64,000 nt of DNA from Faecalibacterium prausnitzii (GTDB lineage: Bacteria > Bacillota > Clostridia > Oscillospirales > Ruminococcaceae), in the NCBI RefSeq assembly GCF_003287495.1, contig NZ_PRLE01000001.1, positions 372,001-436,000 on the forward strand, in the 5' to 3' direction. The notes under the pieces were generated by a model. That model saw only the letters and a list, made by a program, of their open reading frames with translations, searched no databases and had not been told where the DNA came from. The translations under genes and the position numbers were made by a program. Positions 4,106 through 30,710 of this stretch are shown here, piece after piece (within the stretch, counting starts at the first letter, position 1; each line of letters begins with the position of its first letter).

Positions 4106-4141
4106 CAGCCCCCGACGGAACTCCCGCCGGGGGCTGTTTTT
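4106..4141 (+). terminator. Terminator of the DUF2508 gene
   Basis: A perfect 9-bp stem (CAGCCCCCG with CGGGGGCTG) is followed by TTTTTG on the plus strand. It lies between two convergent genes; the minus side lacks a T-run. Confidence 0.88.
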
Positions 4142-4143
4142 GT

Positions 4144-5640: not shown

Positions 5641-5716
5641 AGTGCTCTCCCCTCTCGTCCTGTTTTAGCAAAGTTTATGCGGCTATCTTTCAAAAAATAA
5701 CTGCTGCTTCCCGCTT

Positions 5717-14721: not shown

Positions 14722-15930
14722 TCAAATGTAATCCGAAATATACGGAATTTTGTGGAAGAGCACGTCGTCCAGGCGCTCGGCGGCCTCTTCCCTGCCCTCG
14801 ATGCGCTCCAGCTCATAGAGACGGTCGGCGGTCTTATAACCCAGCAACAGGGTGGAGAGGGTACCGATGCCCATTTTCAGCTTATACTCCGCCGGGGCAT
14901 TCACTACCTTGCAGTGACCATCGGCAAAGCGGACGGTGAACGTCCGGTTATTCCAGGGCAGCAGGGTGTCCTCGATTTCCAGGTCGATGCAGAGCTCGCC
15001 GCCATCGGGGTCGCAGGGGTAATCTTCCAAAAAGCTCTCCACATCCACGATGCGGCCCATCGCGTAGGGGCGGATGCTCTCCTTGATGTCGCCATCGTCC
15101 ATCTCGAAGGCGATGGGTTCACTAAAGTAAGTATTGCCATGCACCTCGTCGATCATGGAGTCGTGGGCGTGGATATACTCCCACAGGCCTTTCTGTGCCT
15201 CGCGGTTGAGGTAGATCATCTCCTTGATATGCATGATATCGTTCTTGATGAGGTAGACCATATAGCCGCAGGGCTTATCTTTCATGTTGTAGTAGACGGC
15301 CACGTTGGTGTCGTCCTCATCCCAGCGCCAGTATTCCTCCCAGGCCAGATTATTGCGGAACAGGCACCCGTGGGTGACGGAGGCAAAGTGGGAATGGAGC
15401 TCATGGAAATCGGTGTTATCCCACGCTACCCGGCGGACATAGCCCGGGGCCTGGACTTTGGTGGGGATCTGCCGGTCCTTGATGTTGAACGAAATTTTAT
15501 TGGAGACGATTTCCCACCCGAGGTGATGATACAGCGGGATGGAGTAGGGGTAGAGCAGCGCAAACGTCTTGCCCTCCTCATACATCCGGGTCAGGCCCTG
15601 GATCATCAACTTTTTCATAATGCCCTGCCCGGTGTACTCCGGGTAGGTGCAGACACTGGTGACGAAGCCGACGTGGTAGACTTCATCGTAGATGTTCATT
15701 TTCAGCGGGTAGACCGCGAACTGGGAGACGAGGGTATCGCCGTCAAAACAGCCCAGCACATCGGCGCGTTCCAGCACCGGGAATTTGGACTGCTTGATCT
15801 CATCGTCTTTCCAGCCTGTAGCCGTCAGTTCCTCCTCCGTCACCTGAAAGGTGTAGCGGAGCAGGGCGTTATACTGATCCAGGTCGTCCGTTTCCAGATA
15901 GCGCGTGGTGTAATGCTCTGCGGAGTTCAT
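14722..15930 (-). CDS. GNAT acetyltransferase, Eis family
   Basis: This 402-residue protein has the Eis layout: an N-terminal GNAT domain with the acetyl-CoA loop in FVTSVCTYPEYTGQGIMKKLM (V-x-x-x-R/G-x-x-G/A type), a second degenerate GNAT-like domain with the motif LLYPYSIPLYHHLGWE, and a C-terminal sterol-carrier-like domain (LEIEDTLLPWNNRTFTVRF). Eis enzymes acetylate lysines or amines such as aminoglycosides and polyamines. It is the last gene of the long minus-strand run that starts at pelD, 44 bases after the pseudokinase. Transfer of acetyl groups to the amino sugars of the Pel-like polymer is conceivable, but Eis proteins are cytosolic and this is only speculation. Confidence 0.85.
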   Translation of the reverse strand: MNSAEHYTTRYLETDDLDQYNALLRYTFQVTEEELTATGWKDDEIKQSKFPVLERADVLGCFDGDTLVSQFAVYPLKMNIYDEVYHVGFVTSVCTYPEYTGQGIMKKLMIQGLTRMYEEGKTFALLYPYSIPLYHHLGWEIVSNKISFNIKDRQIPTKVQAPGYVRRVAWDNTDFHELHSHFASVTHGCLFRNNLAWEEYWRWDEDDTNVAVYYNMKDKPCGYMVYLIKNDIMHIKEMIYLNREAQKGLWEYIHAHDSMIDEVHGNTYFSEPIAFEMDDGDIKESIRPYAMGRIVDVESFLEDYPCDPDGGELCIDLEIEDTLLPWNNRTFTVRFADGHCKVVNAPAEYKLKMGIGTLSTLLLGYKTADRLYELERIEGREEAAERLDDVLFHKIPYISDYI

Positions 15931-15974: not shown

Positions 15975-17690
15975 TCAGTCCGTGTCGTATTCAACGGAGC
16001 CGGCGGGGGCTTCCCCGCTGCCGTCGGCGGTGGCGGTGTTATCGGAGGCGGCGGGCTGCTCCGGGGTGGCCGGGACATTCTCCACGCTGGGGTCCGCGGC
16101 AATATACACCACGATGACGCTCCCGGCCTCCACGCTGGTACCCGCTTCGGCGCTGCAGGAAACGACGCATCCCGACGCATAGGAGCCGTCGTTGACCACC
16201 ATGAAGCAGCTGGGCACCAGGCCCCTGCTCTCCAGCTCTTTCACGGCTCCCTCCTGGGTAAAGCCGATGACGTTGGGCATCTCGATCATCTCGGGGCCCT
16301 TGCTTACCACCAGGCTGATGGTGCCGCCCTCTTCCAGCAGCTCCCCTGCCGCGGGCTCCTGCCGGATGATCTTGCCCTCGGCCACGGTGTCGCTGTATTC
16401 CAGCGTGACATAGAAGAGATAATCGCCCACATAGCTGCGGTTGTTCCGCACCTGAGCGTCATAATCCAGCCCCACGAAATCGGGCACCAGATTGGCGGGC
16501 TCGGTGATGCTGGGCTCCTCCGGCACGCTCTCGGGCGTGGTGACGGACGAAGCCCCCTGTTCCGGCAGGTGGGTACTCACAAAGCCCCAGACCGCGAGCA
16601 GGGTGAGCACGGCCAGCAAGATCAGGATGGCCGCCAGCAGGTTGCGCAGGCTGAGCAGGTGGGTGTCATCCCCGGGGTCTTTTGCCGCCGGGGCGGTCTC
16701 GGGCTTCATGGTGCGGGCCAGCTCCTGGGTGTACTCCTGAGAGGACAGGGCCTTGAACAGCTGGGGCACGGTCTGGATGCGCTCCACCGGCTTGAGCCGC
16801 AGGCCGTACTGCAAAACGTCCGAGAGGTAGACCGGCAGGGCCGGGTTGACGGTGCGGGCTTTGGGGTTGGAGTCCGACACCAGCCGCTGGGCGGCGGGCA
16901 CCGGGCTCAGGCCGCAGACCATCCGATAAAAGACGGCGGCAAGGCTGTATTCATCGGTATAGCGGCCCTCAAACTCGGCGGTGGAGTATTGCTCCGGGGC
17001 CGAGAAGCCCTCGTACAGCTGCTCGTGGAGGCCGCTTCCGGCCGTGCGCAGGCCCACGGTGGCGTAGCCCGTCAGCCGGGCCCGGCCATTGTCCAGCACC
17101 CGGATGTTGGCCGGGCAGATGCCCCGGTGCACCAGCCCCACCTCGTGCATGGCCGCCACGCCCTCAAATACGGGCTGCAGCATGGCACAGGCGGCGGCAG
17201 GCTCCACGGGGCCGGGGTGATCTTCCAGCCATTTCTGCAGGGGCCGTCCGCCGGGGTTTTCCATCACGGCGTAGACGGTATTGTTCTCTTCAAACACGTC
17301 CAGCACGGCTTCCAGGCCGTTGGCCGGGGTGATGCGCTGGATGGCGTGGTAGAGGTCCGCAAAATCCATCCGGGTGGTCTTGAACAGCACCTCGCTGCCG
17401 GGTTTGGGGCGTAAATGGCAGTCCCGGCCCCGCTCGGCGGCCAACGTCAGGGGCATATACTCCTTGACGGTGACCCGGAAGCGGCCCTTGTTCTCCACGC
17501 CCCGGTAAAGGATGCCCTCACCGTCGATGCTCTGGATCTCGCCCACGGTGTACCGCCCTGCCAGCACGGTGCCCACCGGGAGGCTGCCCGACGGGTTGCG
17601 TCCGGTCAGGCTCCGCCCGCAGTGAGGGCAGACCGGTTCCGGTGCGTCCAGCTCCTGCATACAGTACGGGCATATCCGTTTTGCGTCCAT
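15975..17690 (-). CDS. Zinc-ribbon, kinase-like (pseudokinase), membrane-anchored PASTA protein
   Basis: This 571-residue protein starts with a zinc ribbon (C7, C10, C21, C24), followed by a protein kinase fold (about 40-315), one membrane helix (351-372) and two PASTA-like repeats (about 400-465 and 468-535) outside the cell. The ATP lysine is kept (VTVKEYMP, K76) and so is the APE motif (232). However, the HRD motif reads H188-R-G190 and DFG reads T-G208-Y-A, so both the catalytic and the metal-binding aspartates are gone. I conclude it is probably an inactive sensor or scaffold. The ATG at 17690 follows GGGGGAACC. It lies 61 bases after the DUF4832 gene, in line with the Pel-like operon. 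Confidence 0.85.
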   Translation of the reverse strand: MDAKRICPYCMQELDAPEPVCPHCGRSLTGRNPSGSLPVGTVLAGRYTVGEIQSIDGEGILYRGVENKGRFRVTVKEYMPLTLAAERGRDCHLRPKPGSEVLFKTTRMDFADLYHAIQRITPANGLEAVLDVFEENNTVYAVMENPGGRPLQKWLEDHPGPVEPAAACAMLQPVFEGVAAMHEVGLVHRGICPANIRVLDNGRARLTGYATVGLRTAGSGLHEQLYEGFSAPEQYSTAEFEGRYTDEYSLAAVFYRMVCGLSPVPAAQRLVSDSNPKARTVNPALPVYLSDVLQYGLRLKPVERIQTVPQLFKALSSQEYTQELARTMKPETAPAAKDPGDDTHLLSLRNLLAAILILLAVLTLLAVWGFVSTHLPEQGASSVTTPESVPEEPSITEPANLVPDFVGLDYDAQVRNNRSYVGDYLFYVTLEYSDTVAEGKIIRQEPAAGELLEEGGTISLVVSKGPEMIEMPNVIGFTQEGAVKELESRGLVPSCFMVVNDGSYASGCVVSCSAEAGTSVEAGSVIVVYIAADPSVENVPATPEQPAASDNTATADGSGEAPAGSVEYDTD

Positions 17691-17751
17691 GGTGGTTCCC
17701 CCTTGCGGCGTGTTGTAGTGCCTTTTATTGTAGCATATCGCGGATGGGAAA

Positions 17752-19092
17752 TCAAATGAGCACCGCCCGGCCATTGCGGATTTTGGTCTTCATGGCGAAG
17801 CGGACGGCGTCGCGGCCGGTCATGGGGTCCACGATGCCGAGGGTGAGCCTCTGGCCGCCGTTTTTCCCGGAGAGGGAGAGCCGCACCCCCTCCAGCGTGA
17901 CGGAGATCGTCTGCTCCTGCCCGGGCAGAAGCTCCGGCAGGCTCAAACCCAGCGGGAGGGTGTGCAGGGTATTCCCTGCCGCGTCTTCCAGATACAGGTT
18001 CGTGCTCCAGTCCCAGTAAAACGGCGCGTTTCCGTCATTCCGGATCGTCAAAGTGACCGTGGTGCCGCCCGGGCCCGGGGTGAGGGTGAGCTGAGTGACC
18101 CGGAGGCGGTAGCCCAGGTTTTTGAGCACCGCATTGTATCCGCCGCGGTACGTTTCCTCCGCCACCTTGGGACCGAGGAAGCTCATGTGGGACTGCTGCA
18201 CCAGCTCCACGGTCTGGGAGAGCTGGCTGCGGAGCATCGTCTTCATGGGGATGGAGCTGGTGAACTCGCCGCCCACGGGGGCGCTTTGCCAGAACGCGGG
18301 CATGGGGGCCAGGGCGTTGGGCTCCTCGCCGTACCAGCCGCCGTTCTGCAGCCAGCCCAGCCACTCGGCGGTGTCTTCCCCGTGGCCGGTCATATCGTTG
18401 TAAACGCCCAGGCCGTGGGCCGCCGTGATGTTGAATGGCCGCCGCATGAGCAGCTTTGCCGTGGGGAACGCGGCCTCATAGTCCGCGACGTATTCGTCCC
18501 GGATGGCCTCGCCGGGCATGGGGACCAGCCCCTCCCCGGTCTTGATGTGCCACTCGCCCCAGTGGCCCAGGCTCCCCAGCTCCACATAGGTGACAAAGCC
18601 GTCGGTGCCAAAGTGCTCGCCCAGGGCGGCAAGCACCCGGCGGTGGGCGGCCCGGAACGCGGCATTGCTGTAATCCGGGGAGTATCCCTTGCCGTAATCG
18701 GTGCTGTACCAGCTGCCATCGCCGGTCTGGGCGTAGAGCCAGTCCGGGATGTCCATGTGGCTCTCCTGCCCCGGCACATCGCAGACGAAGCGGACCACCA
18801 GATGGATGCCCCGGGCCCGCAGGTCACGGAAGCCGTATTGGGCGTCCAGAGCATCCCAGGCGTAAACGCCCTCCTGGGGCTCCACCTCCCGCCAGCGCAG
18901 CTCCACATACCGCAGGAGGGAATCCTGGGCATAGGCGCTGTCGGTCATGGGGGCATAGCCGATCTGCGCGTTGGGGAACGCGCTTTCATCCGGCGTGTAA
19001 ATCCTGGTCTGTGTCGCGGCGTTTTTCAGCATGGAGCCTCCCATTCCCAGCAGGAAGAGCCCTGCGGCCAGCAGGCTGGCCAATTCAGCCAT
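17752..19092 (-). CDS. Secreted or anchored DUF4832/DUF4874-type protein, putative glycoside hydrolase
   Basis: This 446-residue protein has an N-terminal hydrophobic signal or anchor (LASLLAAGLFLLGMGGSML). A TIM-barrel-like part follows with LRWREVEPQEGVYAWD, GIHLVVRFVCD and VELGSLGHWGEWH, where an acidic residue near the strand ends resembles hydrolase active sites. The last 110 residues form a beta-sandwich (TLTPGPGGTTVTLTIRNDG), the DUF4832 pattern. The start at 19092 overlaps the DUF4956 stop by eight bases with GGGGAG in front, so they are co-translated. In this operon it could trim or bind the polysaccharide, standing in for the hydrolase domain that PelA has in Gram-negative bacteria. 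That role is inferred. Confidence 0.8.
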   Translation of the reverse strand: MAELASLLAAGLFLLGMGGSMLKNAATQTRIYTPDESAFPNAQIGYAPMTDSAYAQDSLLRYVELRWREVEPQEGVYAWDALDAQYGFRDLRARGIHLVVRFVCDVPGQESHMDIPDWLYAQTGDGSWYSTDYGKGYSPDYSNAAFRAAHRRVLAALGEHFGTDGFVTYVELGSLGHWGEWHIKTGEGLVPMPGEAIRDEYVADYEAAFPTAKLLMRRPFNITAAHGLGVYNDMTGHGEDTAEWLGWLQNGGWYGEEPNALAPMPAFWQSAPVGGEFTSSIPMKTMLRSQLSQTVELVQQSHMSFLGPKVAEETYRGGYNAVLKNLGYRLRVTQLTLTPGPGGTTVTLTIRNDGNAPFYWDWSTNLYLEDAAGNTLHTLPLGLSLPELLPGQEQTISVTLEGVRLSLSGKNGGQRLTLGIVDPMTGRDAVRFAMKTKIRNGRAVLI

Positions 19093-19750
19093 GATACTCC
19101 CCGTTGTACTGGATGAGTGTGACATCCTGCACTCCTTCCACCGCCCGGACGCGGTCTGCAAACTCCACGTTGGGGTCATTGCAGAAGACCTCTACGGCCA
19201 TCTCGGTGTTCTCGCCCCGCATGGTCTTGGATTTGACGACGAACTTGATGCGGCCCAGCGCCCGGACGATGTTGTCCCCGGCCTCCGTGCCCGCATAGTG
19301 GATCACGGCGATGTACACCCGGCCTTTGGCCTGCCAGTGGGAGAAGAGGTAGATCATGCCGATCATGACAACCGCCGTGACCAGCCCCAGCGCGTACATG
19401 CCCGCGCCTGCCGTGATGCCCGTGGTGATGGACCAGAACAGGTAGAGCAGGTCCAGCGGGTCCTTGACGGCAGTGCGGAAGCGGACGATGGACAACGCAC
19501 CCACCATACCAAGGGAGATGACCACGTTGGTGCTGATGGCCAGCGTGACCATGCAGGTAAGCACGCACATGCCCACCAGCGTGACTGCAAAGCTGCGGGA
19601 GTAGACCACACCCGTGTAGAACTTGCGGTAGACCAGATAGATGAGGATGCCCAGCGCCAGCGCCGCCAGCAGCGCCACGGCCAGCTTGGGCGCGTCGTAC
19701 TGGGTAAAGGCGTTCAGGACGGATTTCTTGATAAAGTCTTTTGTGCTCAT
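19085..19750 (-). CDS. DUF4956 membrane protein
   Basis: This 221-residue protein has four hydrophobic helices (LAVALLAALALGILIYLVY, SFAVTLVGMCVLTCMVTLA, VVISLGMVGALSIVRFR and YALGLVTAVVMIGMIYLF) and a soluble C-terminal alpha/beta domain. The GALSIVRFRTAVKDPLDL segment is the DUF4956 signature. The family is commonly encoded next to VTC-domain and CotH genes, as here, but its activity is unknown. The ATG at 19750 has AAAGGAA upstream, and the VTC gene ends 22 bases before it. Confidence 0.9.
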   Translation of the reverse strand: MSTKDFIKKSVLNAFTQYDAPKLAVALLAALALGILIYLVYRKFYTGVVYSRSFAVTLVGMCVLTCMVTLAISTNVVISLGMVGALSIVRFRTAVKDPLDLLYLFWSITTGITAGAGMYALGLVTAVVMIGMIYLFSHWQAKGRVYIAVIHYAGTEAGDNIVRALGRIKFVVKSKTMRGENTEMAVEVFCNDPNVEFADRVRAVEGVQDVTLIQYNGEYHG

Positions 19751-19772
19751 AAAGCGATTTAATTCCTTTCCC

Positions 19773-20564
19773 TCAGGGTTCGTTCCAGTAGGTAAAGCCA
19801 TGCTGGTAGGCGGTTTTATCGCAGCACAGCACATATTTGGAGACGGCGGTCAGTTCCTGCGCCCGGGGCGGGAGGAGATCCCGCACGATCTGGGGCAGAA
19901 ACTCGGTGAACTTGACTTCCAGCACCAGCTTGCCCGGCTCCAGCACCGGCAGGGTGGGCAGCGTGGGGTCAAAGATGTCCCAGCTGCCCACGGCGGCCCG
20001 GACGCCCATGTCGAACGTGACCCGCACGGTGCCGGCATCTAAAATCCAGGGTTCCCGGTCGTAATCCACGATGACCCGGGGCCGGAGGACATTGCTGACA
20101 CACTCGGTATAGAACTCCTGACACAGGCGGTGGGGGCTGTGGAGCAAAAAGTCATAGTCCCCGGCCAGGATCCGCTCAAACTCCGCCCGGGTCAGGGGGG
20201 CGGCTTCTTTGTAGATCCAGCTGCCGAACTTTTTCTTCCGCTCCAGCTTGATGCTCCTGTCGCTGCAATTGTAGACGCGGACGCGGTACTTCTTGCGCAG
20301 GAGGACGCCCGCGTCTTTCTCCGCGTAGGCGGTGTTCCAGTAATCGTCAAAGTAGAGGCTGCGGATGAAGTACCCGCCCTGCTTCGCGTGAGGGTCCAGG
20401 TGGAGCACCGGGGCCATCCGCACGGCCAGCTCGGCCTTGTCGGCGTAGGAGATGAGGTACTTCAGCTCGTGGCGGTAAGCCTCGGCATGGCTGCGGGGCG
20501 GCGGGGCCAGCAGCTCTTTGCCCCACTCCATGCCCCGCTGCCAGAGTGCGGCATCATTCTTCAT
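19773..20564 (-). CDS. VTC domain protein (polyphosphate polymerase-like)
   Basis: This 263-residue protein matches the VTC tunnel fold, whose yeast member makes polyphosphate from ATP. Basic and acidic residues lining the tunnel are visible in order: RHELKYLI, IRSLYFDD, KKYRVRVYN, IKLERKKK, RPRVIVDYDREPW, LVLEVKF and SKYVLC. No SPX or membrane domain is attached. The ATG at 20564 has GGAGG six bases upstream and overlaps the end of the CotH gene by 11 bases. It may make polyphosphate or use another triphosphate substrate. The link with CotH and DUF4956 is a recurring but unexplained bacterial gene group. Confidence 0.92.
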   Translation of the reverse strand: MKNDAALWQRGMEWGKELLAPPPRSHAEAYRHELKYLISYADKAELAVRMAPVLHLDPHAKQGGYFIRSLYFDDYWNTAYAEKDAGVLLRKKYRVRVYNCSDRSIKLERKKKFGSWIYKEAAPLTRAEFERILAGDYDFLLHSPHRLCQEFYTECVSNVLRPRVIVDYDREPWILDAGTVRVTFDMGVRAAVGSWDIFDPTLPTLPVLEPGKLVLEVKFTEFLPQIVRDLLPPRAQELTAVSKYVLCCDKTAYQHGFTYWNEP

Positions 20565-22362
20565 AGGTATCCTCCACCACGGTACCGTCCGGCTGGATGT
20601 AGAAGCACTTGACGCCATACACCTTGCCGCTGTCGATGACATAATAATCAAAGGCGTCCTGGGTGTAGCCGGAGGCGTTGGTGGCCCGCACCCGGATGAA
20701 ATACTGGCCCGCGGCGGGGGCGGCCGTCTGGGTCATGGGCAGGACGACGTGTTCTTCCCGGTAGACCATCTGCCGGAACTGATAATCCCGGGCCAGCTCC
20801 ACGGTGTAGGAGATGTCCTCGGCATTGAAATCATAAGAGGTGTCCCAGCTGAGCTGCAGCACTCCATTCTGAAGAGAAGGCGTGCCGATATAGAACGGCA
20901 TGGGATTGTGGTAGCTCTCCCAGTAATAATCGTAGTCTTCGTCGATCTCGGGCCAGATGCTTTCCAGCACCTCCTCATATTGCTCATGGGTGATGGGAAC
21001 ATGGAGCCGATCCGGCATCCGCCAGACATATTCCTCGGTAACGCTGCGGTAGTGCGCCAGCATGGACTCAATGCGATCCTGGTTCATGTAGGCATAGAGC
21101 TCGTTCATGGCGGTGTCCAGCAGCTGGCGGAAGCTCTCGGTCTGGAGGCAGCGGCGGAACAGCACATTGCCCCAGTAGTTGCTCACGCCCCGCTCCCAGC
21201 TCTCGGAATCCGAGAACTGGATGATCTCCCGCTCCTTGCGGCGGAGCATACCGTCGTTGTCCCAGTCCAGCAGATACCAGCAGTCGGAGTTCTGGGGACT
21301 GTAGAGGTAAACATTCCGGCTCTGGGTATCGGTGTTGCCCGTCAACAGTTGGAACGCCAGCCAGTAGGCAATATTCTCGGGGTCAAAATACCGGGCAAAC
21401 ACTTCCTCATCCATGGAGGAAGATTCATCGTTGAGGACGTCCAGCATCTCAATGAGCTTGGAATGGTCGCTGTTGCCCTTGATCTCCATGAGCTGCTCAA
21501 AGGCCGTCTGGTCATAGGCAGGGTCCGTCGTGAGGCGGATAATATCTTCATTCCGGTAGAACTCAAAGGAGTTGATCTTGTACAGCTGGCCCGTGGAGTC
21601 CAGCCCGTGGGCTTTCAGGGCCGTTTTATTCAGCTGTTCCACCTGCGTGTAGAGGCCATAATCTTCAAAAACACCGCTGGAGCTGTCGGTCAGATCTTTC
21701 ACATAAAGATGGACAAATTGGGTCCGCAGGCCCATCATCTGGTCGATGCCCTTGATGAGGTCGTAGGCCATTTTGTTGCGGAACCGCAGGCCCTCGCCCA
21801 TGTGCTTGTTGAGGGCGATGGTGCGCTGGCCCCGCCAGCTTCCCTTGTTCTTTTTGAGCTCGATCTTATAGTTTTTCTGGGCGTTCCGGCTGGAGGTCTG
21901 GCCGCGGATCTGCACCGTGGCGTTGGGGGCCTCCACCCCATAGCCCAGCTCCCCGGGCAGGGGGCCGTTCTCGTCGCCCACCTGCAAAAGGGCGTTGACC
22001 TGATAGCGGGGCACGCCCATGGCCGCGTAATCGTAGGCGGAGTAGTGGTTGATCTGGGCCCAGCTGTGGTTGGTGTTCTCGCTGTCGTTGCCCCGGCTCA
22101 CGGTGAGGTACATGGTCACCACGCCGCTGTCGTCGTAAACGGTGTAGAGCTCCGGGTTGTCCCGCAGGTGGACGCTGTTGAGCTCGGTCCGCGGTGCCTT
22201 TTCCTCAGCACCGGTGCTGGCACTGGCAGAGGCCGCCTCGGAGCGGGCGGCGCTTTCCGCACTGCCGGCATCGGGCAGCACGGCGCAGCCCGCACAGAGC
22301 CCGGCCAGCGCCACACCCAGCCCCAGCACTTTGCGCCGGGGGATCAAAGCATTTTTATTCAT
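20554..22362 (-). CDS. CotH kinase family lipoprotein
   Basis: This 602-residue protein starts MNKNALIPRRKVLG and has a lipobox LCAGC, so it is surface-anchored. The CotH kinase domain covers roughly residues 60-440, with the typical motif GQTSSRNAQKNYKIELKK, RTIALNKH, DYGLYTQVEQ and a DWDND-type metal site (YLLDWDNDGM). A fibronectin III-like domain follows (QLSWDTSYDFNAEDISYTV). CotH of Bacillus phosphorylates coat proteins. The start at 22362 overlaps pelG by eight bases. Its substrate here could be a surface protein or the Pel-like polymer; neither is shown. Confidence 0.92.
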   Translation of the reverse strand: MNKNALIPRRKVLGLGVALAGLCAGCAVLPDAGSAESAARSEAASASASTGAEEKAPRTELNSVHLRDNPELYTVYDDSGVVTMYLTVSRGNDSENTNHSWAQINHYSAYDYAAMGVPRYQVNALLQVGDENGPLPGELGYGVEAPNATVQIRGQTSSRNAQKNYKIELKKNKGSWRGQRTIALNKHMGEGLRFRNKMAYDLIKGIDQMMGLRTQFVHLYVKDLTDSSSGVFEDYGLYTQVEQLNKTALKAHGLDSTGQLYKINSFEFYRNEDIIRLTTDPAYDQTAFEQLMEIKGNSDHSKLIEMLDVLNDESSSMDEEVFARYFDPENIAYWLAFQLLTGNTDTQSRNVYLYSPQNSDCWYLLDWDNDGMLRRKEREIIQFSDSESWERGVSNYWGNVLFRRCLQTESFRQLLDTAMNELYAYMNQDRIESMLAHYRSVTEEYVWRMPDRLHVPITHEQYEEVLESIWPEIDEDYDYYWESYHNPMPFYIGTPSLQNGVLQLSWDTSYDFNAEDISYTVELARDYQFRQMVYREEHVVLPMTQTAAPAAGQYFIRVRATNASGYTQDAFDYYVIDSGKVYGVKCFYIQPDGTVVEDTYEE

Positions 22363-23845
22363 CTTCCCTCTCCTCTCCGGCGGCGTGTTTTGCACGCACT
22401 GCCGATCTGGTTTCCAGAAACAGGCCCAGCCGGGTGAACCGCCCGGCCCTGGTCTCGGCCACGATGGGCTGCTGGCCCAGGACCCGATACGGCAGGTTGG
22501 CCGTAAAGGCGTCCAGCCGGAGCAGCGTGACCAGATAGAACAGCGCGGCCCCGATGAGGAAGCCGAAGCCGTAGAACGCGGTGTTGAACGCCATGGACAG
22601 GGCCGTGAATCCGCTGGCGGACACCGCAAACACGGCGGCAGCCGTGACCGCGCCGCGGTAGTCCGTGAAGTAGAGCAAAATCATCAGAATGGTGTTGCCC
22701 ACGGCGTAGAGGCCGTACCCCACGCAGAGGGTGCGGAAATAGCCGTGCATCAGGTTGTTGAAGCCCAGGGGCAGCAGGTCCAGCAGCGTCCCCTCCAGCG
22801 AGAGGACCGCCGCCGTGACAAAGAGCTGCTTGAGGGCCGTGAACCGGAGCTCCCGGTTGAGGACGGCCAGCATCTCCTCCTCGGCGGTGACGATGTCGCC
22901 CACAACGCCGCCATCGTTGAAGAGGCTGTAGTAATCCCGGTACTTGGGGTAGAAGTTGACCTCCACCGACACCACAAAGTTGATGCTGGTGATGAGGATG
23001 GTCAAAAAGGCGATGAGGGCCGGGACATCGTAATAGGGTGCCCCGTAGAACAGGCCCTTGACCTGCACGCCCACCGGCCCCACCCAGCAGATGACGAGGT
23101 GGGCAAACAGGCCAATGTTGGTGCACAGGCCGGTGAACGCCAGAGGCAGGAATTCATCCACCCATTTCAGAAACGTCCAAGGGCTTTCATCGCTCTGGTG
23201 GAAATAGCGGTAGAGCAGCACCACGTCCCAGACCATCATCAGACCGTAGCCCATGGCCACGGCAAAGAGCATCCCCTCCGGCACCGGGAAGCCCAGCAGG
23301 ACCACCAGTACCAGCCCCAGCCCGAACGCCAGCCCGATGGCCGCTAAAAACGAGCAGAGGATGCCCCGGTAATCCTTGATGGCCGTGAGGTAGCTCATGC
23401 CGTTCCAGTTCACGATCATCTCCGCGAAGAGCCACAGGCAGAGCAGCCCCTGCAGCAGAGTGGCCCCGGAGACAAGGAGGAACAGCCCGTACAGGCTGCA
23501 CCCCAGCACCAGCATCAGGCTGGAAGAGCCCCAGAACGAGGGCAGGATGGTCTGCTCCTGTTCCTCATACAGCATATCTGCCAGATACCGTGTCACCGGC
23601 ATGGAGAAAAAGCTGGTGACGGTGAGGGAGAACAGCAGCGTATAGGTGATCATGCAGACCAGCAGGTCCTGCTGGGCTCGCTCGGCCCCCACCCAGCCAC
23701 AGAGCAGCAGAATGCCCATCTGGAGCGCCACGCCCAGCAGCATGGGCCCGGTGCAGATGATGCCCGCGTACCCGTAGGCCCGCAGGGAGGCAAACAGGCC
23801 TTTGCGGCGGAACAGCTTTTTCAGTTCAAATCCAATTCCTGCCAT
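22355..23845 (-). CDS. pelG: Pel exopolysaccharide export membrane protein PelG
   Basis: This 496-residue protein has about 12 hydrophobic helices and starts MAGIGFELKKLFRRKG, the PelG signature. PelG is a flippase-like (MOP superfamily) partner of the glycosyltransferase PelF that passes the growing polymer across the membrane. Charged C-terminal 50 residues (RFTRLGLFLETRSAVRAKH) extend into the cytosol. It starts four bases after the pelF stop, with TTGGAG in front inside the pelF end. It overlaps the CotH gene by eight bases, which ties the CotH-VTC-DUF4956 group to the Pel genes in one message. Confidence 0.94.
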   Translation of the reverse strand: MAGIGFELKKLFRRKGLFASLRAYGYAGIICTGPMLLGVALQMGILLLCGWVGAERAQQDLLVCMITYTLLFSLTVTSFFSMPVTRYLADMLYEEQEQTILPSFWGSSSLMLVLGCSLYGLFLLVSGATLLQGLLCLWLFAEMIVNWNGMSYLTAIKDYRGILCSFLAAIGLAFGLGLVLVVLLGFPVPEGMLFAVAMGYGLMMVWDVVLLYRYFHQSDESPWTFLKWVDEFLPLAFTGLCTNIGLFAHLVICWVGPVGVQVKGLFYGAPYYDVPALIAFLTILITSINFVVSVEVNFYPKYRDYYSLFNDGGVVGDIVTAEEEMLAVLNRELRFTALKQLFVTAAVLSLEGTLLDLLPLGFNNLMHGYFRTLCVGYGLYAVGNTILMILLYFTDYRGAVTAAAVFAVSASGFTALSMAFNTAFYGFGFLIGAALFYLVTLLRLDAFTANLPYRVLGQQPIVAETRAGRFTRLGLFLETRSAVRAKHAAGEEREDE

Positions 23846-23848
23846 GTG

Positions 23849-25264
23849 TTACTCCAAGTGATATTCTTTTGCGGTTTCGTCGTACATTTTCTGGTAGTTG
23901 GCCAGCATCTGCTCGTGGTGGAAGTAGGCGTCCACTCGTCTCTGTCCAATGCGGCCCATCTCCTCCCGGCGGGCACGGCTGGCGCACATCTTTTCCATGG
24001 CGTCGGCCAGGCCCTGGCGGTACATGGGCGGCACGCAGTAGCCCGCAATGCCAAAGGTGTCCCCGGGAGCGCCCTCCAGCAGCTCCCGGCAGCAGCCCAC
24101 CTCGGTGGTCACGCAGGGGCGGCGGGCCGCCATGGATTCCAACACCGAGAGTGGCTGCCCCTCCGAGATGCTGGTGAGGATGGTGAAATCCAGTTTCTGC
24201 ATATACTGCACCACGTCCACACGGCCGGTGAAGAGCAGATTTTTGATCTGCAATTGCTCCACCAGCGCATAGCACTCGTTGGCGTAACCCTCATCGTCCA
24301 CGCCGCCCATGATGTGGAGACGGACGTTGGGTACCCGGGAGGCCAGCTCAAAGAAGGCGTAGATCATGGTCTTGACGTCCTTGATGGGGGCCAGACGCAC
24401 CACCGCGCCGATGTCCACCCAGCCGTCCTCTTCTTTCAGCGGGATATCGCAGAACCGCTGGTACTGGACGCCGTTGGGGATGACGATGCACTTGGCCCCG
24501 TCGCAGCCCATCTCGATCTGGGTGCGGCGGGCGTTGTAGAACAGGCTGCTGACCCGGAACGCCCGCCGGTAAATTTCTTCCGATAACATATAGAAGAACC
24601 GGATCCAGCGGCTCTTGAACGAGGGCACCACCCACTCGGCCCGGATGATCTCCTCCTCCCGCTCCCGGGTGTAGATGCCGTGCTCGGTGAGGAGGACGGG
24701 GGCGTGGTTCAGGCTGCCGCCCAGGCAGGCCAGCAGGCCGCCGTAGCCCGTGGAGATGGCGTGGTAGACATCCGCTTTGGGCACCCGGCCCGTGAGCAGA
24801 TAGAGCACCGGCAGCAGCATGGAGCGCATGGTGTGGAACGCGTCGGCATAGGCCACATAGGGGTACTCCTTGAGGCAGATATCGGTGAACAGCTCCATGA
24901 AATCCCTACTCTGCAAAAAGGAGAGCGGGTGGACGCCTTTTTGCTGAAACAGTCGGAACAGCACGTCCCAGTCCGGGTGGCCCAGCCGCACCAGCTCCCG
25001 CAGGGCGGCGCGCTCGGCCTCATGAAAGAGGACCGGCTGCTGCTCGCCGTGGAGGCGGAGGGCGTCGTCCAGAAAGACTTCCTCCACCTCTTTCACGTTG
25101 GGAGGCAGCTCATACACGAACTTGCCCCGGTCTTCAGCTTTGGCCCCGATGACCCAGAGGGAGAACTCCTGCCGGGGCATGGCCTGGATATAAGCGTGCA
25201 TCCAGGTGGACACGCCGCCGTGGACATAGGGGTAGGAGCCCTCCAGCACCAGACAAATGCGCAT
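23849..25264 (-). CDS. pelF: Pel exopolysaccharide glycosyltransferase PelF
   Basis: This 471-residue GT-B glycosyltransferase polymerises the amino-sugar chain from UDP sugars in the cytosol. The N-terminus RICLVLEGSYPYVHGGVSTW is the PelF signature; VIPNGVQYQRF, VVRLAPIKDVKT and the C-terminal EGQPLSVLESMAARRP with the conserved E-x7-E pair are typical of the family. The ATG at 25264 (MRICLV) is five bases after the DUF2194 gene stop, with AAAGGGG upstream. Pel polymer in other bacteria is rich in GalNAc and GlcNAc; the sugar here cannot be read from sequence. Confidence 0.94.
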   Translation of the reverse strand: MRICLVLEGSYPYVHGGVSTWMHAYIQAMPRQEFSLWVIGAKAEDRGKFVYELPPNVKEVEEVFLDDALRLHGEQQPVLFHEAERAALRELVRLGHPDWDVLFRLFQQKGVHPLSFLQSRDFMELFTDICLKEYPYVAYADAFHTMRSMLLPVLYLLTGRVPKADVYHAISTGYGGLLACLGGSLNHAPVLLTEHGIYTREREEEIIRAEWVVPSFKSRWIRFFYMLSEEIYRRAFRVSSLFYNARRTQIEMGCDGAKCIVIPNGVQYQRFCDIPLKEEDGWVDIGAVVRLAPIKDVKTMIYAFFELASRVPNVRLHIMGGVDDEGYANECYALVEQLQIKNLLFTGRVDVVQYMQKLDFTILTSISEGQPLSVLESMAARRPCVTTEVGCCRELLEGAPGDTFGIAGYCVPPMYRQGLADAMEKMCASRARREEMGRIGQRRVDAYFHHEQMLANYQKMYDETAKEYHLE

Positions 25265-25268
25265 GGTC

Positions 25269-27131
25269 TCACGCCCCTTTCTTTTCAATGTGGATGGTGT
25301 CGGCGTTGGCTTTGAGCAGGTAGAGGTTCCCCGTCAGGTTGGTGAGCTCGCCGCCCGTCACCCGGCCGGGGGTGCCTTCATTGGCCCGGAAGAACAGCCA
25401 CCCCTCGTCCACAAAATTGCCGAGGGTAAGCGTCCACTCCGTGGGGGTGCTCTCGGTGGTGACGGTGAGCTGGCTGTACCGCTGGACCGCACCGGCACAC
25501 TCGGTGCCGGTCTGCTTGCGCAGGTCGGGGGCAGCGGCGGAGAGCCATTTGAGGTAATCCTCAAAGCCACCCTTGTACACCTCCCAGCCCTCTTCCGCGC
25601 CGCGGTCCACATCCAGCAGGTCGTCCGGGTGCATGAAGTGGGTGCTGACGTAGTGCATGTTCAGCTCGTTCATGGCAGCCAGCCGCATGTAGGTATCCCC
25701 CACCATGCCGCCAGAGACGATGCGGGGCTGTTCCACCATGCCGTCGCTGGCCACACCGAACTCCTGCACATAGGGCAGGTCCGTGCCATCCTCAAAATAG
25801 GTGCTGGCAATGGTACGGATCTGCGGCACGTTGCTGCCCAGCACCTGCCGCCCGGCAACGGAGAGAATGTTGGAGGGCGGCACATAAACGCTGCCATTCG
25901 TATGGGGCAGCACGGTCTTCTGGAACGCGATCAGCTCGTCCATGGCGGCCACGATGGCGTCCTCGCCGGGCCACTGGCGGTAGCTGTAGAGGTCTTTATA
26001 ATCGGTATCGGGCAGCACCAGCGGCTGGTGGTTGTAGCCGTGGTAGCCCACTTCCCCGCCCTGCCGCAGCAGCAGGCTGCCAAAATAGCGGAACTGCTGG
26101 GTGTCCGGCTGGCGGGTGGGGGCATCCACCGTGTTATCCTCGTAGTTTTCGATCATGACGCCGGTAAAGCGGATGGAGTATTTCTGGGCCAGCTTCATCA
26201 GGTCCGGCCACCAGACTTTGGCGTAAAAATCCGCAATGCTCATGCTGTAATCCCGGCGGATATAGGTGCCATCGCCGCCCGGCACCGGGGAGGGGAAATC
26301 GTCCAGGTAGAACACCGCCCCGTTGATGACGGGGTAGGCCGTGGCGTCGCACAGCAGGCTGTAGGAGGCCGCGTACACGCCCCGCAGCACCTTATCATAG
26401 ATGCCGATGTTATCCACCACCACCCGGCCGGAGCCGCTGGAATGCTCCCACACCAGCGGGACGCCCTTGTCCCCGGTGCGGGCATACACGGTGGTATCCT
26501 CCCGGAGGCTGACGCTGAGGGCAGACTGGAACGGGTCACTGAACTCATACCGCTGCCCGCCGCCCAGCATAAAGTCTTCCGATGGGACGATGCTTTCCAC
26601 CATCTTATACTCCCATGCAGAGGACTGGACCCCCAGCTTTTGTGAAATCGCATCGAAATATGTCGTTTTGTCCGGTGTCATGGCGAAGAGCACACTTCCG
26701 CCGTTCTGCACCCAGTTCATCAGGTCGATGAGGCGCTTGCCCAGGGCGTCCAGGTTGCTCATGAGGACCACCACGGTCTGATACTGGCTGAACTCCGGCA
26801 GGCTGGTCAGGGCCGTGGTGTGCACGTCTACCGCCTGGGTACCCACTTTCATGTCCAGCAGGATCTGGTCGAACTGCTCCTTGACCTGGTCGGTACCCTC
26901 CTGCCCGGAGTCGTAGAGCAGCAGGCAGGTGACGGGTTGGCCGAACATGGCGATGGAGGCGGGCTTGACCTCCGCGCGAGGGAGATAATCAATTTTAAAT
27001 TGGGTGGAGGCGTACCGGATGCCGCTGCGCTCCGCAAACAGGATGGCCGCCATGGCCAGGAACACGGCCCAGATGAGGAGCAGTTTCCGCCAGCGGAACG
27101 CATCCAGCCAGGAATGCAATTTGTGTTTCAT
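25269..27131 (-). CDS. DUF2194 protein, PelA-like polysaccharide deacetylase
   Basis: This 620-residue membrane-anchored protein has one N-terminal helix (16-34). It carries a large extracellular part with a flavodoxin-like segment (about 60-150) and a CE4-like deacetylase core. The core holds the acidic pair YLDDFPSPV (D277, D278) and the zinc pattern HxxxH in GYHGYNHQP (H364, H368). In Gram-positive Pel operons such a DUF2194 protein takes the place of the PelA deacetylase and makes the polymer cationic. No hydrolase domain is fused. The ATG at 27131 shares one base with the pelE stop (TGATG). Confidence 0.88.
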   Translation of the reverse strand: MKHKLHSWLDAFRWRKLLLIWAVFLAMAAILFAERSGIRYASTQFKIDYLPRAEVKPASIAMFGQPVTCLLLYDSGQEGTDQVKEQFDQILLDMKVGTQAVDVHTTALTSLPEFSQYQTVVVLMSNLDALGKRLIDLMNWVQNGGSVLFAMTPDKTTYFDAISQKLGVQSSAWEYKMVESIVPSEDFMLGGGQRYEFSDPFQSALSVSLREDTTVYARTGDKGVPLVWEHSSGSGRVVVDNIGIYDKVLRGVYAASYSLLCDATAYPVINGAVFYLDDFPSPVPGGDGTYIRRDYSMSIADFYAKVWWPDLMKLAQKYSIRFTGVMIENYEDNTVDAPTRQPDTQQFRYFGSLLLRQGGEVGYHGYNHQPLVLPDTDYKDLYSYRQWPGEDAIVAAMDELIAFQKTVLPHTNGSVYVPPSNILSVAGRQVLGSNVPQIRTIASTYFEDGTDLPYVQEFGVASDGMVEQPRIVSGGMVGDTYMRLAAMNELNMHYVSTHFMHPDDLLDVDRGAEEGWEVYKGGFEDYLKWLSAAAPDLRKQTGTECAGAVQRYSQLTVTTESTPTEWTLTLGNFVDEGWLFFRANEGTPGRVTGGELTNLTGNLYLLKANADTIHIEKKGA

Positions 27132-28042
27132 CACGCGTTCTTCCCCTGCCAGAACCGCACCGTCTCGCGGCCCTTTGCGCTGAGGTAGACCTCCTTTTCC
27201 TCGATGTCATGCAGTGTTTTCTGGATGGCCGCACCATCCCGCAGGGCAGCCGCCATCCGCAGGTGGAGCAGCCAGGGCGTTTCCCGCTGGGGCCAGCGGG
27301 CCGTCAGCGCGTCCAGCGTGGCCTCGGCCCGGTCGTACTCGGCAAGGGCCAGCTGGGCTGCTGCCAGCTTGCATTCCAGCGTGTAGCTGCGGCGTCCCAG
27401 GGCATCCAGCCGCTTTTTGAGCAGCTGCTCCAGCTGGTGGCGCTGAATCTCCGCCGCCTTTCCCTGCACAAAGCCGCCGTCCAGATAGCTTTCCAGATAA
27501 TCGCAGTATTCTTCCAGCACCTTGGCGTCGCCGGGGGCGGCGGCATAGCGCTGCTCCTGCTGCTGGAGCTTCAGGTCGGCCTCTTTGGAAATTTGCGCCA
27601 GTGCAGTGGAGGCATAGTGTACCACCTCGCTGTCGTCGTCCATCCGGGCCTGCTGCAACAGGTCGTAGTAACCTGCGGGGTCGTCCGTGAGCACCGAGAG
27701 GATGAGCTTCCGCTTCTGGGCGGGGCTGTTCACCAGCAGGGCCTCTTCCAGCGGGACGACGGTATCTTTCTCCTCGTTTTCCGCCACGAGGATATTTTTG
27801 TAGATTTCTTCGTTGATGCGCAGTTTCTCCAATGTCCGGTCGAGCAGCTGCCCGTCCGTGAGCCGGTGGGAGGTGTGGAGCAGCACCACGCACAAAGGCC
27901 CCCACACCGGCACCAGCAGCGCCACCGGGAGGAAATACCCCTCCACTTCCAGCGCCCGGGAGCGGGCCAGCAGCCAGAGGGCCCCGCACAGAGCCAGATG
28001 CAGCACCAAAAACAGCAGACCAAACCAGAATCCGCTCCCCAT
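27131..28042 (-). CDS. pelE: Pel exopolysaccharide membrane protein PelE
   Basis: This 303-residue protein has two N-terminal hydrophobic helices (about 4-26 and 36-56), followed by a cytosolic helical region rich in Ala, Leu, Glu and Lys that looks like TPR repeats (AALAQISKEADLKLQQQEQ, ECKLAAAQLALAEYDRAEATLDAL). That is the PelE layout; PelE joins PelD, PelF and PelG in the inner-membrane synthase complex. The call leans on position between pelD and the DUF2194 deacetylase, because PelE is poorly conserved. AGGAGG inside the end of pelD serves as its ribosome site; the gap is four bases. Confidence 0.85.
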   Translation of the reverse strand: MGSGFWFGLLFLVLHLALCGALWLLARSRALEVEGYFLPVALLVPVWGPLCVVLLHTSHRLTDGQLLDRTLEKLRINEEIYKNILVAENEEKDTVVPLEEALLVNSPAQKRKLILSVLTDDPAGYYDLLQQARMDDDSEVVHYASTALAQISKEADLKLQQQEQRYAAAPGDAKVLEEYCDYLESYLDGGFVQGKAAEIQRHQLEQLLKKRLDALGRRSYTLECKLAAAQLALAEYDRAEATLDALTARWPQRETPWLLHLRMAAALRDGAAIQKTLHDIEEKEVYLSAKGRETVRFWQGKNA

Positions 28043-28046
28043 CTCA

Positions 28047-30158
28047 CTACACCTCCTGTTTGGCGGCGCTCACCAGCCGCAGCTGCTCGTCCAGCGGCAC
28101 GGAGATGACATGCAGACCTTTCTCTCCCATGCGCTTGGTCAGCAGGGGCAGGTTTGCTTCCTCCGCCTGATTCATCAGCAGGTAGATCGCGTTGTCCGAG
28201 CCCACGCCGGCCACATCCGTGCTGCGGATGGAGCGCTCCACCCGGGCGTTGAGGTCGGCCTGGTTCTTGAACTCGCCCGTCACCCGCAGCAGCAGGTGGT
28301 GGGCCATTTTATCTTCCTGCAAGGTGCAGGCGGATTCCAGCTTCTGCGCAAACACGGCAGGCCGCAGCAAGCAGGTACCGGGCAGATACCAGCTCTCCCG
28401 CACGGCGTTCTCGTACTCAAAGGCACGCACCAGCGCTGTTTCCACCAGCCCGCAGAGGATGCGGAAAAGGTTCTGGTAGTAGAGCGTCATCTGCTCCTCG
28501 GTGGCCGTCCGCAGACCAATGAGCACCACGAGGGTGCCGTTCTGCCGCACGCCTGCCGCGTACATGGGCAGGCCGGGCCTGAGCTCCCGGTTCACCCACA
28601 GACCCTCCTGCTCAATGCCCCGGAGGACATCCAGCCGCTGGGCCACCTCGATGGAATGGGCCGGGGCAGGCTCCAGCCCGGCGCTGGCGGCGGTCAGGCG
28701 GGCAAAGGTGTGGTTTTGTTCCAGCCGGTAGATGGTCAGGCTGTGGTTTTCCAGCACGTCCTCCATCACCTGGACGGTCTTGCGGTAAATTTCCTGCGGC
28801 TGCAGCATATCCAGCTGCTGGGTCACGGTATAAATTTTGCCAAAACTGTCCCGGCGGCCTAAGATCTGGCGGCGGAACATCTGTTTGTCTTCCAAAGTAT
28901 CCTGATACAGCCGCTGGGTGAACCGGAGCCGGTCGCGCAGGAGGTCGTTTTCCTCCCGCACAAAGCGGGCGGCCTCGGTGTTGCGCAGCTGCACATAGCC
29001 GCAGGAGGCGCCCACCACAAAGTAGACGATGAACGCCAGCCAGTTGGAGGGCTCATAGAACAGCAGCATCAGGGTTGTCCCCTGCCGCAGATACCCTGCC
29101 GCCAGCGAGACGGAGGCCAGCACGGCAGCCAGCACACCCGCGTTGAGGCCGTACACCGTGCCGATGAGCATGACGAACATCAGCCGGAAATCGATCATCT
29201 GGAACTGGGCGTCGGTGCCGGTGGCCCGTACCAGCACTTCCGAGAGAAGCCATGCGGCTAATATCTCCACGATGCGGAGCAGCCGGGTGCTCTGGCGGAG
29301 TTTGTCCATGGCGCGGTGGACGACGCTCTTTTTTTCGGTCTGGCGGGCCTGCCAGAGCTTGTAGATGGCGGGCAGGTCGTCCAGCAGACTGTACCGCTGG
29401 AACCAGCCGTACCGGCGGCGGACCGTGCGGTCGTCGGTGGGGTACGTCTGGAGGGTGTCGGCGCCGTAGCTCACTTCCAGCCCGGGCTGCAGCTTTTGCA
29501 GCACCTCGCCCACCTGCCGCTGGGTGGCGTCGAACACCTGCGGCAGCAGGAACCGCTCCGGCTCCGGCGTCCAGGTATCAAACACCCGGGCGGTCAGGTC
29601 GGCCAGTTCCTCCATGCAGAGGGCAAGCAGGGGCTGGGCCGCCTGCTCATCCATCTGCACCGTGCCGGTGGGCATCTGCTCAAACAGGCGGGCAAACTGC
29701 TCCGTGCCGCTCTCTGAGACGGCGTAGAGATAAGGCAGCCGGAACACCTTGACCTGAATTTTGCTGGTCTTGGCATAATGGAAGCAGAGCTCCTCCGCCG
29801 CGTTTGCCAGCAGCGATTTGCCGGAGGGGGGCGTCAGAGCGGCCATCGGGCCCGAAAAGTACAGCAGCTGCACTTCCCGCTCACGGCAGGCCTGCAGCAC
29901 CCAGCGCAGCCGGTCCAGCTCGCCCTCCTGCTCGCCGTGGGGCAGCAGGTACTCTGAAAAATAGACGATGCGGTCAAACTGGTAGGTCTCGTTGATCTGG
30001 GCCAGCAGCTGCTTGCCGTCCAGGGTGACGGTCTTCACCCGGGTGTCCAGCAGTGCTTCGCTCTTGGTGTGGGTGGTCAGCACATGGTCGTCAGGGAACG
30101 CCGTCTCGATCCACTCCTGGGTCAGAAACGCCGTATAGCCTGTCAATAATATCTCCAT
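28047..30158 (-). CDS. pelD: PelD-like cyclic-di-GMP receptor with N-terminal epimerase-like domain
   Basis: This 703-residue protein is the first gene of the operon. Residues 1-230 look like a degenerate NAD-dependent epimerase/SDR domain (LLTGYTAF, YFSGPMA, VKVFRLPYLYA). It lacks a clean Rossmann glycine motif and the catalytic Tyr. About 295-390 holds the membrane helices, 395-435 a charged coiled-coil-like stretch, about 440-575 a GAF domain and 600-700 a degenerate GGDEF domain. There the signature reads SDNAI (654-658), but R645-S-T-D648 keeps the RxxD inhibitory-site motif five residues before it, the spacing used to bind cyclic-di-GMP. The ATG at 30158 has AGGAG upstream. Confidence 0.88.
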   Translation of the reverse strand: MEILLTGYTAFLTQEWIETAFPDDHVLTTHTKSEALLDTRVKTVTLDGKQLLAQINETYQFDRIVYFSEYLLPHGEQEGELDRLRWVLQACREREVQLLYFSGPMAALTPPSGKSLLANAAEELCFHYAKTSKIQVKVFRLPYLYAVSESGTEQFARLFEQMPTGTVQMDEQAAQPLLALCMEELADLTARVFDTWTPEPERFLLPQVFDATQRQVGEVLQKLQPGLEVSYGADTLQTYPTDDRTVRRRYGWFQRYSLLDDLPAIYKLWQARQTEKKSVVHRAMDKLRQSTRLLRIVEILAAWLLSEVLVRATGTDAQFQMIDFRLMFVMLIGTVYGLNAGVLAAVLASVSLAAGYLRQGTTLMLLFYEPSNWLAFIVYFVVGASCGYVQLRNTEAARFVREENDLLRDRLRFTQRLYQDTLEDKQMFRRQILGRRDSFGKIYTVTQQLDMLQPQEIYRKTVQVMEDVLENHSLTIYRLEQNHTFARLTAASAGLEPAPAHSIEVAQRLDVLRGIEQEGLWVNRELRPGLPMYAAGVRQNGTLVVLIGLRTATEEQMTLYYQNLFRILCGLVETALVRAFEYENAVRESWYLPGTCLLRPAVFAQKLESACTLQEDKMAHHLLLRVTGEFKNQADLNARVERSIRSTDVAGVGSDNAIYLLMNQAEEANLPLLTKRMGEKGLHVISVPLDEQLRLVSAAKQEV

Positions 30159-30241: not shown

Positions 30242-30270
30242 ATTTTACCACTGCGGCAGTGGGATTTCAA
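30242..30270 (-). promoter_or_regulatory. Pel operon promoter with a perfect palindrome in the spacer
   Basis: The minus strand has TTGAAA (30265-30270), a 17-base spacer and TAAAAT (30242-30247). The first 15 spacer bases next to the -10 are CCACTGCNGCAGTGG (30248-30262), a perfect palindrome. It is 84 bases before the pelD start. A regulator binding there would block transcription of the whole operon. Confidence 0.65.
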
Positions 30271-30353: not shown

Positions 30354-30360
30354 TCTCATT

Positions 30361-30710
30361 TGGTGGAGGCGATGGGAGTCGAACCCATGTCCGAAAAGAG
30401 CTCAGCGCAGGTGTCTCCGGGTGCAGGCGATCTACAACATTCCCGCCGCGTCACGCCGATCGTCAGGCTAACGCTTTGGTAGCTTCATGAGTTCCTGCCG
30501 GTCCGCAAAGCTTAAGTCCGTTCAGGTGCTGTGTCTAAAGGACGCCCCGGCCCCACACGACACAAGAGTGGGCGGAACGCGCAGCACTCAGGCTGCGAGC
30601 AACTGATAATTATTGTTGTCAGTTAATTTTTTGGAGGAGTTATAGAGCAGTTCCCCCGCTGCTACCCGCTGCCCAGGCCTCCCTCCCCCCGTCGAAACCT
30701 TTACGCCCCC
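30361..30710 (-). ncRNA. ssrA: tmRNA (ssrA)
   Basis: The 350-base RNA begins GGGGGCGTAAAGGTTTCGACGG and ends with a T-loop GTTCGACTCCC, CGCCTCC and an encoded CCA. The two ends pair as a 7-bp acceptor stem with one G-U. The tag reading frame ends ...DNNNYQLLAA followed by TGA, a good protease tag with LAA-like end. The exact resume codon is not clear. It lies 67 bases downstream of smpB, its protein partner, on the same strand. Pseudoknot-like GC-rich pairs fill the middle part. Confidence 0.95.

Follow-up and report, generated by a model that had tools for sequence, protein, structure and literature searches.

Background

In streptococci and clostridia, the Pel exopolysaccharide genes pelDEA_DAFG are contiguous with cotH, a polyphosphate polymerase gene and genes for DUF4956 and DUF4832 proteins (Whitfield 2020, PMC7112168). 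We analysed a comparable operon of Faecalibacterium prausnitzii. It lies in a 64,000-nucleotide stretch (assembly GCF_003287495.1, contig NZ_PRLE01000001.1, positions 372,001 to 436,000 of the forward strand), which is called the window here and to which all coordinates refer. In bifidobacteria, DUF4832 is replaced, and an epimerase-like extension of PelD accompanies the cotH set (PMC7112168). The PelD of B. cereus binds cyclic di-GMP (c-di-GMP) via an RxxD motif (PMC7112168).

The combined system has been dissected by single-gene deletions in Streptococcus intermedius (PMC12345266). The pelDEA_DAFG genes were required for Pel, and the four added genes were dispensable. Aggregation fell by over half, in one medium, when the DUF4956-type protein or CotH was lost. 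The Pel level rose in the DUF4956 mutant and fell in the CotH mutant. The DUF4832 protein acted on Pel and broke up aggregates.

A Pel operon of the described class

The nine genes pelD-E-A_DA-F-G-cotH-VTC-DUF4956-DUF4832 ran along the minus strand from 30158 to 17752, and a pseudokinase gene followed as the tenth on the same strand. The features were as follows.

28047..30158, minus strand: pelD; putative epimerase-like domain of degenerate form at the N-terminus, a membrane segment and a C-terminal degenerate GGDEF domain with an RxxD I-site
27131..28042, minus strand: gene for a PelE-like protein of 303 amino acids, from position and profile
25269..27131, minus strand: pelA_DA (DUF2194), predicted polysaccharide deacetylase (PF09960, E 1.1e-177)
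23849..25264, minus strand: pelF, GT4 glycosyltransferase (NF038011 PelF, E 7.3e-95, above the NCBIfam cut-off)
22355..23845, minus strand: pelG, membrane exporter (PF16933, E 3.9e-136)
20554..22362, minus strand: cotH, predicted secreted lipoprotein kinase (PF08757, E 4.6e-73; 5jd9, E 5.7e-8; signal)
19773..20564, minus strand: gene for a VTC-domain polyphosphate-polymerase-like protein (PF09359, E 5.2e-32; Vtc4 profile and fold matches)
19085..19750, minus strand: gene for a DUF4956 membrane protein with an ACT/MgtC-like C-terminal domain (PF16316, E 1.9e-11; model)
17752..19092, minus strand: gene for a DUF4832 protein, related by domain to SIR_1591, the Pel hydrolase of S. intermedius (PF16116, E 9.8e-17)
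30242..30270, minus strand: weak promoter-like site 5' of pelD, TTGAAA-17-TAAAAT with TG ahead of the second hexamer (10/12 matches)
15975..17690, minus strand: gene for a PASTA/zinc-ribbon pseudokinase outside the operon, with a partial kinase domain and PASTA repeats

Counted from the likely start codons, the junctions from pelD to DUF4832 were +4, -1, +4, +3, -8, -11, +22 and -8 bases, with +61 bases to the pseudokinase. These values agree with the overlaps of 1-11 bases, the gaps under 25 bases and the 61-base gap of the original prediction, and domain matches together with the PelF profile bore out its ten genes in their positions on the minus strand. The five core genes pelD, pelE, pelA_DA, pelF and pelG were contiguous on one strand, and the four added genes were contiguous with them. 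PelD and PelE gave no Pfam match above cut-off; they were assigned by position and iterative profiles (each in 83 of 87 pel loci), and PelD also by its RxxD motif. The site ahead of pelD and a second promoter-like site ahead of the pseudokinase (17755-17727) are weak evidence, because the stretch held seven such sites against 3.5 (standard deviation 2.1) in shuffled sequences.

The locus resembles the streptococcal and clostridial pelDEA_DAFG-cotH-PPP-DUF4956-DUF4832 operons (PPP, polyphosphate polymerase) in gene content and in contiguity, and may also share the epimerase-like PelD extension that accompanies the cotH set (PMC7112168). The main text of that paper contains neither the word Faecalibacterium nor the word Collinsella, and two of the Faecalibacterium PelDs studied here lack the C-terminal domain. 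Genes for CotH, polyphosphate polymerase, DUF4956-type and DUF4832 proteins also stand with pelDEA_DAFG in S. intermedius (SIR_1591-1594, PMC12345266), but that cluster comes from another order of the phylum. The B. cereus operon shares the five core genes and the RxxD-bearing PelD, whereas the cotH set is described for streptococci, clostridia and actinobacteria (PMC7112168). The operon is thus a new member of an already described class, the Gram-positive pelDEA_DAFG operons with cotH, a polyphosphate-polymerase gene, DUF4956 and DUF4832. The original claim that no such combined system had been characterised had been overtaken by its description in 2020 (PMC7112168) and its genetic dissection in S. 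intermedius in 2025 (PMC12345266). As far as our literature search reached, no published description of pel in Faecalibacterium was found.

Conservation of the linkage

PelG was sought in 61 genomes, the window's own and 60 relatives, 31 of the 61 belonging to the same genus. It occurred in seven, all of them Faecalibacterium, so its presence within the genus is patchy. The six aligned loci and the window, that is all seven pel-bearing genomes, carried the nine genes in identical order, and for this reason the arrangement is more than chance. Two lineages could be distinguished. Five genomes, the window included, had PelG identities to the window of at least 71%, and the two others (G001 and G021; loci L020 and L021, 20 kb each) kept the same nine-gene order at 32-34% PelG identity.

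A scan of named genomes with the PelG profile took the best 80 of 423 relatives and was thus biased to close kin; because these 80 loci are the nearest kin, the rates are not those of all pel loci. CotH, VTC and DUF4956 were all present in 65 of the 80, and the order pelG-cotH-VTC-DUF4956 was kept in 63, spanning Lachnospiraceae, Oscillospiraceae and Actinomycetota. DUF4832 was found in 37. When the count was restricted to loci where 3.3 kb or more of sequence followed pelG, 62 of 68 had all three proteins. The predicted physical coupling of pel with the CotH-VTC-DUF4956 genes is therefore conserved. In a sample of 299 genomes of the phylum, PelG occurred in 12 (11 above cut-off; the weak genomes G100 and G339 are included in the 12). 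Three of these had VTC, which lay beside PelG in two.

The 87 pel loci count two genomes twice (L192 is from the L016 genome and L223 from the L018 genome), and L192 and L223 were excluded from the catalytic-residue counts, the PelD alignment and the PelG and VTC trees. All trees were quick ones without bootstrap. The PelG tree, whose root is arbitrary, joined the window to four further Faecalibacterium rows, nine of Collinsella and three of Bifidobacterium in one group (100), whose members were closer to each other than to the second Faecalibacterium lineage. This grouping suggests that the pel operon was exchanged between phyla among gut bacteria. Spread by plasmids found no support in a search of plasmid records: 18 of them held a PelG relative, all below 60% identity and so none close.

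VTC and DUF4956 as a pair

DUF4956 was present in 46 of the 299 phylum genomes, and the genomes with VTC were an identical set (Fisher p 2.8e-55, uncorrected for relatedness). In the control genomes, the two again occurred together, in the same 3 of 14, including an archaeon. At 52 of 53 DUF4956 places, a VTC gene lay no more than 3 kb away; the remaining place was at a contig edge. CotH lay within 6 kb at 32 of the 53, two in pel and 30 of 51 outside. Among the 30 trios outside pel, 27 had the order VTC-DUF4956-CotH and three had other orders; none had the pel order. The S. intermedius authors stated that the three-gene arrangement was not found outside Pel (PMC12345266). These 30 places leave the remark valid for the exact gene order, but show that the three genes do occur together elsewhere. 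As far as our literature search reached, the VTC-DUF4956 pairing outside pel was not found in print. VTC and DUF4956 are probably an obligate pair, a membrane-coupled polyphosphate polymerase.

For the loci outside pel, 39 of the 51 DUF4956 places were fetched; L174 and L178 had no clustered VTC, leaving 37. Of the 72 pel rows in the VTC tree, 71 fell in one clade (97 in the quick tree); the exception was L179. A response regulator and a histidine kinase stood beside the module in 18 of 38 non-pel loci examined, and 7 of the 38 had a carbohydrate-binding protein of the Cthe_2159 type. These seven (L183, L184, L185, L186, L187, L189 and L153) form a second flavour of the module, VTC-DUF4956 beside the Cthe_2159-like protein, and six of them have no CotH.

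At three loci, the module was joined to a GT2 synthase operon. The L154 operon encodes an MBOAT-DHHW protein, and L157 a HEAT protein and a chitin-synthase-like GT2. At L155 (4960-11969), the GT2 synthase, bactofilin/leucine-rich-repeat and AlgX/DHHW-like proteins formed one operon with VTC-DUF4956-CotH. The GT2 profile was built from the three loci that it then matched; its fourth match was a 681-amino-acid protein. A similar locus is NELoc-2 of Clostridium perfringens, with VTC, a small membrane protein, CotH, a HEAT protein and a chitin-synthase-like glycosyltransferase (PMC2879425), and L157 has the same order. From its size and position, the small membrane protein would be DUF4956. NELoc-2 differs from the pel operon in that a GT2 synthase replaces Pel (PMC2879425) and the order would be VTC-DUF4956-CotH.

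Catalytic residues, folds and signals

In yeast Vtc4, mutation of R264, R266 or E426 impairs the enzyme (PMC9911596). The positions aligned with R264/R266 and E426, mapped by motif, were unchanged in 72/72 pel and 37/37 non-pel VTCs. The VTC profile matched Vtc4 (3g3q) with E 1.4e-5, and a search of PDB sequences with the single VTC protein gave no match. The structural model of the window VTC had a predicted local distance difference test (pLDDT) score of 88.9, and its best fold match was Vtc4 (3g3r, E 1.4e-13). By alignment and model, the tunnel fold, the catalytic basic residues and the glutamate appear to be present. The window protein thus resembles the yeast VTC complex (PMC9911596; PDB 3g3r/7ytj) in the fold of the polymerase domain and in the residues of the catalytic tunnel. 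In contrast to the yeast complex, it has no SPX domain, and its membrane part would be supplied by DUF4956, which looks unrelated.

DUF4956 had the invariant basic residues R90, R92 and K96 within its most conserved stretch. Its model was of middling quality (pLDDT 71.2), and the C-terminal part resembled ACT, NikR and MgtC C-terminal domains.

Two CotH aspartates were kept in 108/108 and 107/108 rows, and would be equivalent to D228 of B. subtilis CotH. The window CotH had a lipobox-like LCAGC following a twin-arginine-like start. A lipobox was detected in 38 of 80 pel CotH rows and a hydrophobic run in 68 of 80; the lipobox count came from a crude regular expression on stop-to-stop open reading frames, in which upstream residues may mask signals.

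A possible polyphosphate link and its alternatives

Gene content and order, tight junctions, conservation, the kept VTC and CotH catalytic residues and the VTC-DUF4956 pairing were read from the sequence; a link of the operon to polyphosphate is inferred. As for the original suggestion of a polymer that is itself phosphorylated or tied to polyphosphate, VTC and CotH have kept their catalytic residues, but S. intermedius needed none of the four added genes for Pel (PMC12345266). In other species, PelD, PelE, PelF and PelG make and export an N-acetylgalactosamine polymer, which PelA_DA deacetylates, and the DUF4832 protein is a hydrolase able to cut Pel. Deacetylated Pel is cationic. We regard it as fairly probable that the locus combines a Pel operon of the known class with a VTC-DUF4956 polyphosphate machine that passes its polymer through the membrane, and with a surface CotH kinase, the pseudokinase being unrelated. 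The operon would have recruited the VTC-DUF4956 pair and the secreted kinase. Cytoplasmic VTC and membrane DUF4956 would form one machine, which would build polyphosphate from ATP and move it across the membrane in the way that the yeast VTC complex delivers it to the vacuole. Outside the cell, this polyanion would bind to Pel, itself cationic and partly deacetylated, and make the matrix stiffer. As a surface lipoprotein, CotH would add phosphate to a target in the matrix or envelope; the exported polyphosphate might be its source, because ATP is scarce outside cells.

A bolder extension, which we consider rather unlikely, is that VTC and DUF4956 each supply one obligate half of a polyphosphate polymerase-translocase of prokaryotes, which would correspond distantly to yeast VTC. 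This would be a movable module, joined to Pel as CotH-VTC-DUF4956 and separately to GT2 synthases as VTC-DUF4956-CotH. On Pel-producing cells, surface polyphosphate would cross-link the cationic polymer and feed the secreted CotH kinase, with polyphosphate and not ATP as the donor.

Several observations weigh against the proposed polyphosphate machine. None of the four added genes is needed for Pel production in S. intermedius, and the section on these mutants reports no consequence of deleting the VTC gene (PMC12345266). The mutant phenotypes in that species were mild and give a polyphosphate link weak support. Taken alone, the end of the Vtc4 alignment that holds E426 was not significant. 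The membrane part of the DUF4956 model was poor, and the fold search matched the C-terminal domain only and no known channel. PPK1 was present in 10/10 Faecalibacterium genomes among the matches listed; VTC is therefore not the only polyphosphate route, and its candidacy as the sole polyphosphate maker was ruled out. Six of the 68 pel loci with enough DNA lacked one or more of CotH, VTC and DUF4956: two were Liquorilactobacillus loci, L258 had none of the three, L245 and L257 had CotH only, and L260 had VTC and DUF4956 only. Outside the kin group, most pel genomes had no VTC (9 of the 12 PelG-positive genomes of the phylum sample).

A possible, though on balance doubtful, alternative is that CotH, VTC and DUF4956 form a regulatory or signalling set, in which CotH would phosphorylate Pel or envelope proteins, and VTC and DUF4956 would sense or buffer phosphate, tuning Pel output without matrix polyphosphate. 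The authors of both PMC7112168 and PMC12345266 proposed that phosphorylation has a regulatory role and that there is a connection with phosphate metabolism. The shifts of Pel level in the S. intermedius DUF4956 and CotH mutants, which fell short of abolishing Pel, are consistent with such tuning. The same may be said of the modelled DUF4956 C-terminal domain, which is like regulatory ACT domains, and of the two-component genes beside nearly half of the non-pel modules examined. However, the full Vtc4-like catalytic set is invariant, and a mere sensor would not need it.

We consider it improbable that the four added genes do unrelated work and are tied to pel only through shared regulation or by hitch-hiking on one transfer unit. 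VTC-DUF4956 mostly occurs without pel (the overlap at 3 of 12 PelG genomes gives p 0.40), and Pel production by S. intermedius in their absence fits this explanation. But the tight gene overlaps, the order kept across Lachnospiraceae, Oscillospiraceae and Actinomycetota, the pel-specific VTC clade and the aggregation phenotypes of the two S. intermedius mutants (PMC12345266) argue against mere company. The original version, in which pel, the CotH-VTC module and the pseudokinase make up one fused system not yet characterised, can scarcely be credited: the 61-base adjacency in the window speaks for it, but the class is already published, and the kinase is a gene of the genus at large that elsewhere stays away from pel, with homology beginning near its start codon.

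Probable control by c-di-GMP

The RxxD motif of the window PelD is RSTD (residues 645-648), and its arginine and aspartate were aligned in 78 of 82 PelD rows. The four misses were L018 and L019, in which the domain is gone, and L198 and L216, which are short or fragmentary rows. The window's own genome encodes seven GGDEF proteins. The operon is probably controlled by c-di-GMP. In F. hattorii (L018, PelD 3817-5658) and G025 (L019), PelD has lost its C-terminal c-di-GMP receptor domain entirely, while the remaining operon is intact. A similar loss of the C-terminal domain is described for streptococcal PelDs (PMC7112168).

The window PelD has 703 amino acids and a glycine-containing start, and gave no Epimerase match at E 0.5. 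Among the aligned PelDs, L179 matched Epimerase with E 4.2e-56, and L018 with only 0.2. GxxGxxG was seen in L179 alone among the 82 rows. This locus (genome G164) encodes a PelD (80-2317) with an intact NAD-epimerase domain and has two cotH genes in tandem.

The pseudokinase and the flanking region

The gene downstream is a pseudokinase, as had been predicted, because its HRD and DFG motifs are altered to HRG and (T/A)GY in 17/17 orthologues; the VAIK-type lysine is kept. These orthologues (67-77% identity) came from 17/17 same-genus genomes among the matches listed, out of 30 others in the genus. Eleven of the 17 had no PelG match. In the six pel-bearing congeners, the pseudokinase lay 0.2-1.6 Mb from pel (G006, G009 and G025) or on a separate contig (G001, G015 and G021). 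No relative of it was found among the 87 pel loci. In the relatives aligning that far, homology of the pseudokinase region started at or just before the start codon, near 17691-17704. The pseudokinase is an unrelated neighbour of the operon. Its inclusion as a system part in the original prediction does not stand, and we rejected it as an extra operon member since it is genus-wide, unlinked to pel elsewhere and absent from pel loci. An Eis-like GNAT/SCP2 acetyltransferase gene (14722-15930) adjoins it.

On the other side, ssrA and smpB lie upstream and were unlinked to pel in the relatives checked. Homology to four relatives ended at the 3' end of ssrA, at 30359-30361 (transfer-messenger RNA 30361-30710). 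The ssrA 3' end is a possible integration hotspot; a search for a mobile-element insertion there found no attachment-like repeat and no integrase. In G009 (L054), holin- and tail-like open reading frames, judged by eye, follow ssrA. In G011 (L052, 10277-19978), the block from dnaX to ssrA runs in the opposite orientation to its neighbours on the right.

Implications

The locus extends the Pel class to Faecalibacterium, a major butyrate producer, and is otherwise an ordinary operon of that class. The perfect co-occurrence of VTC and DUF4956 across 299 genomes offers a testable function for DUF4956, as the membrane partner of a bacterial polyphosphate polymerase. The pairing may also provide a simple route to asking whether bacteria export polyphosphate into their biofilm matrices.

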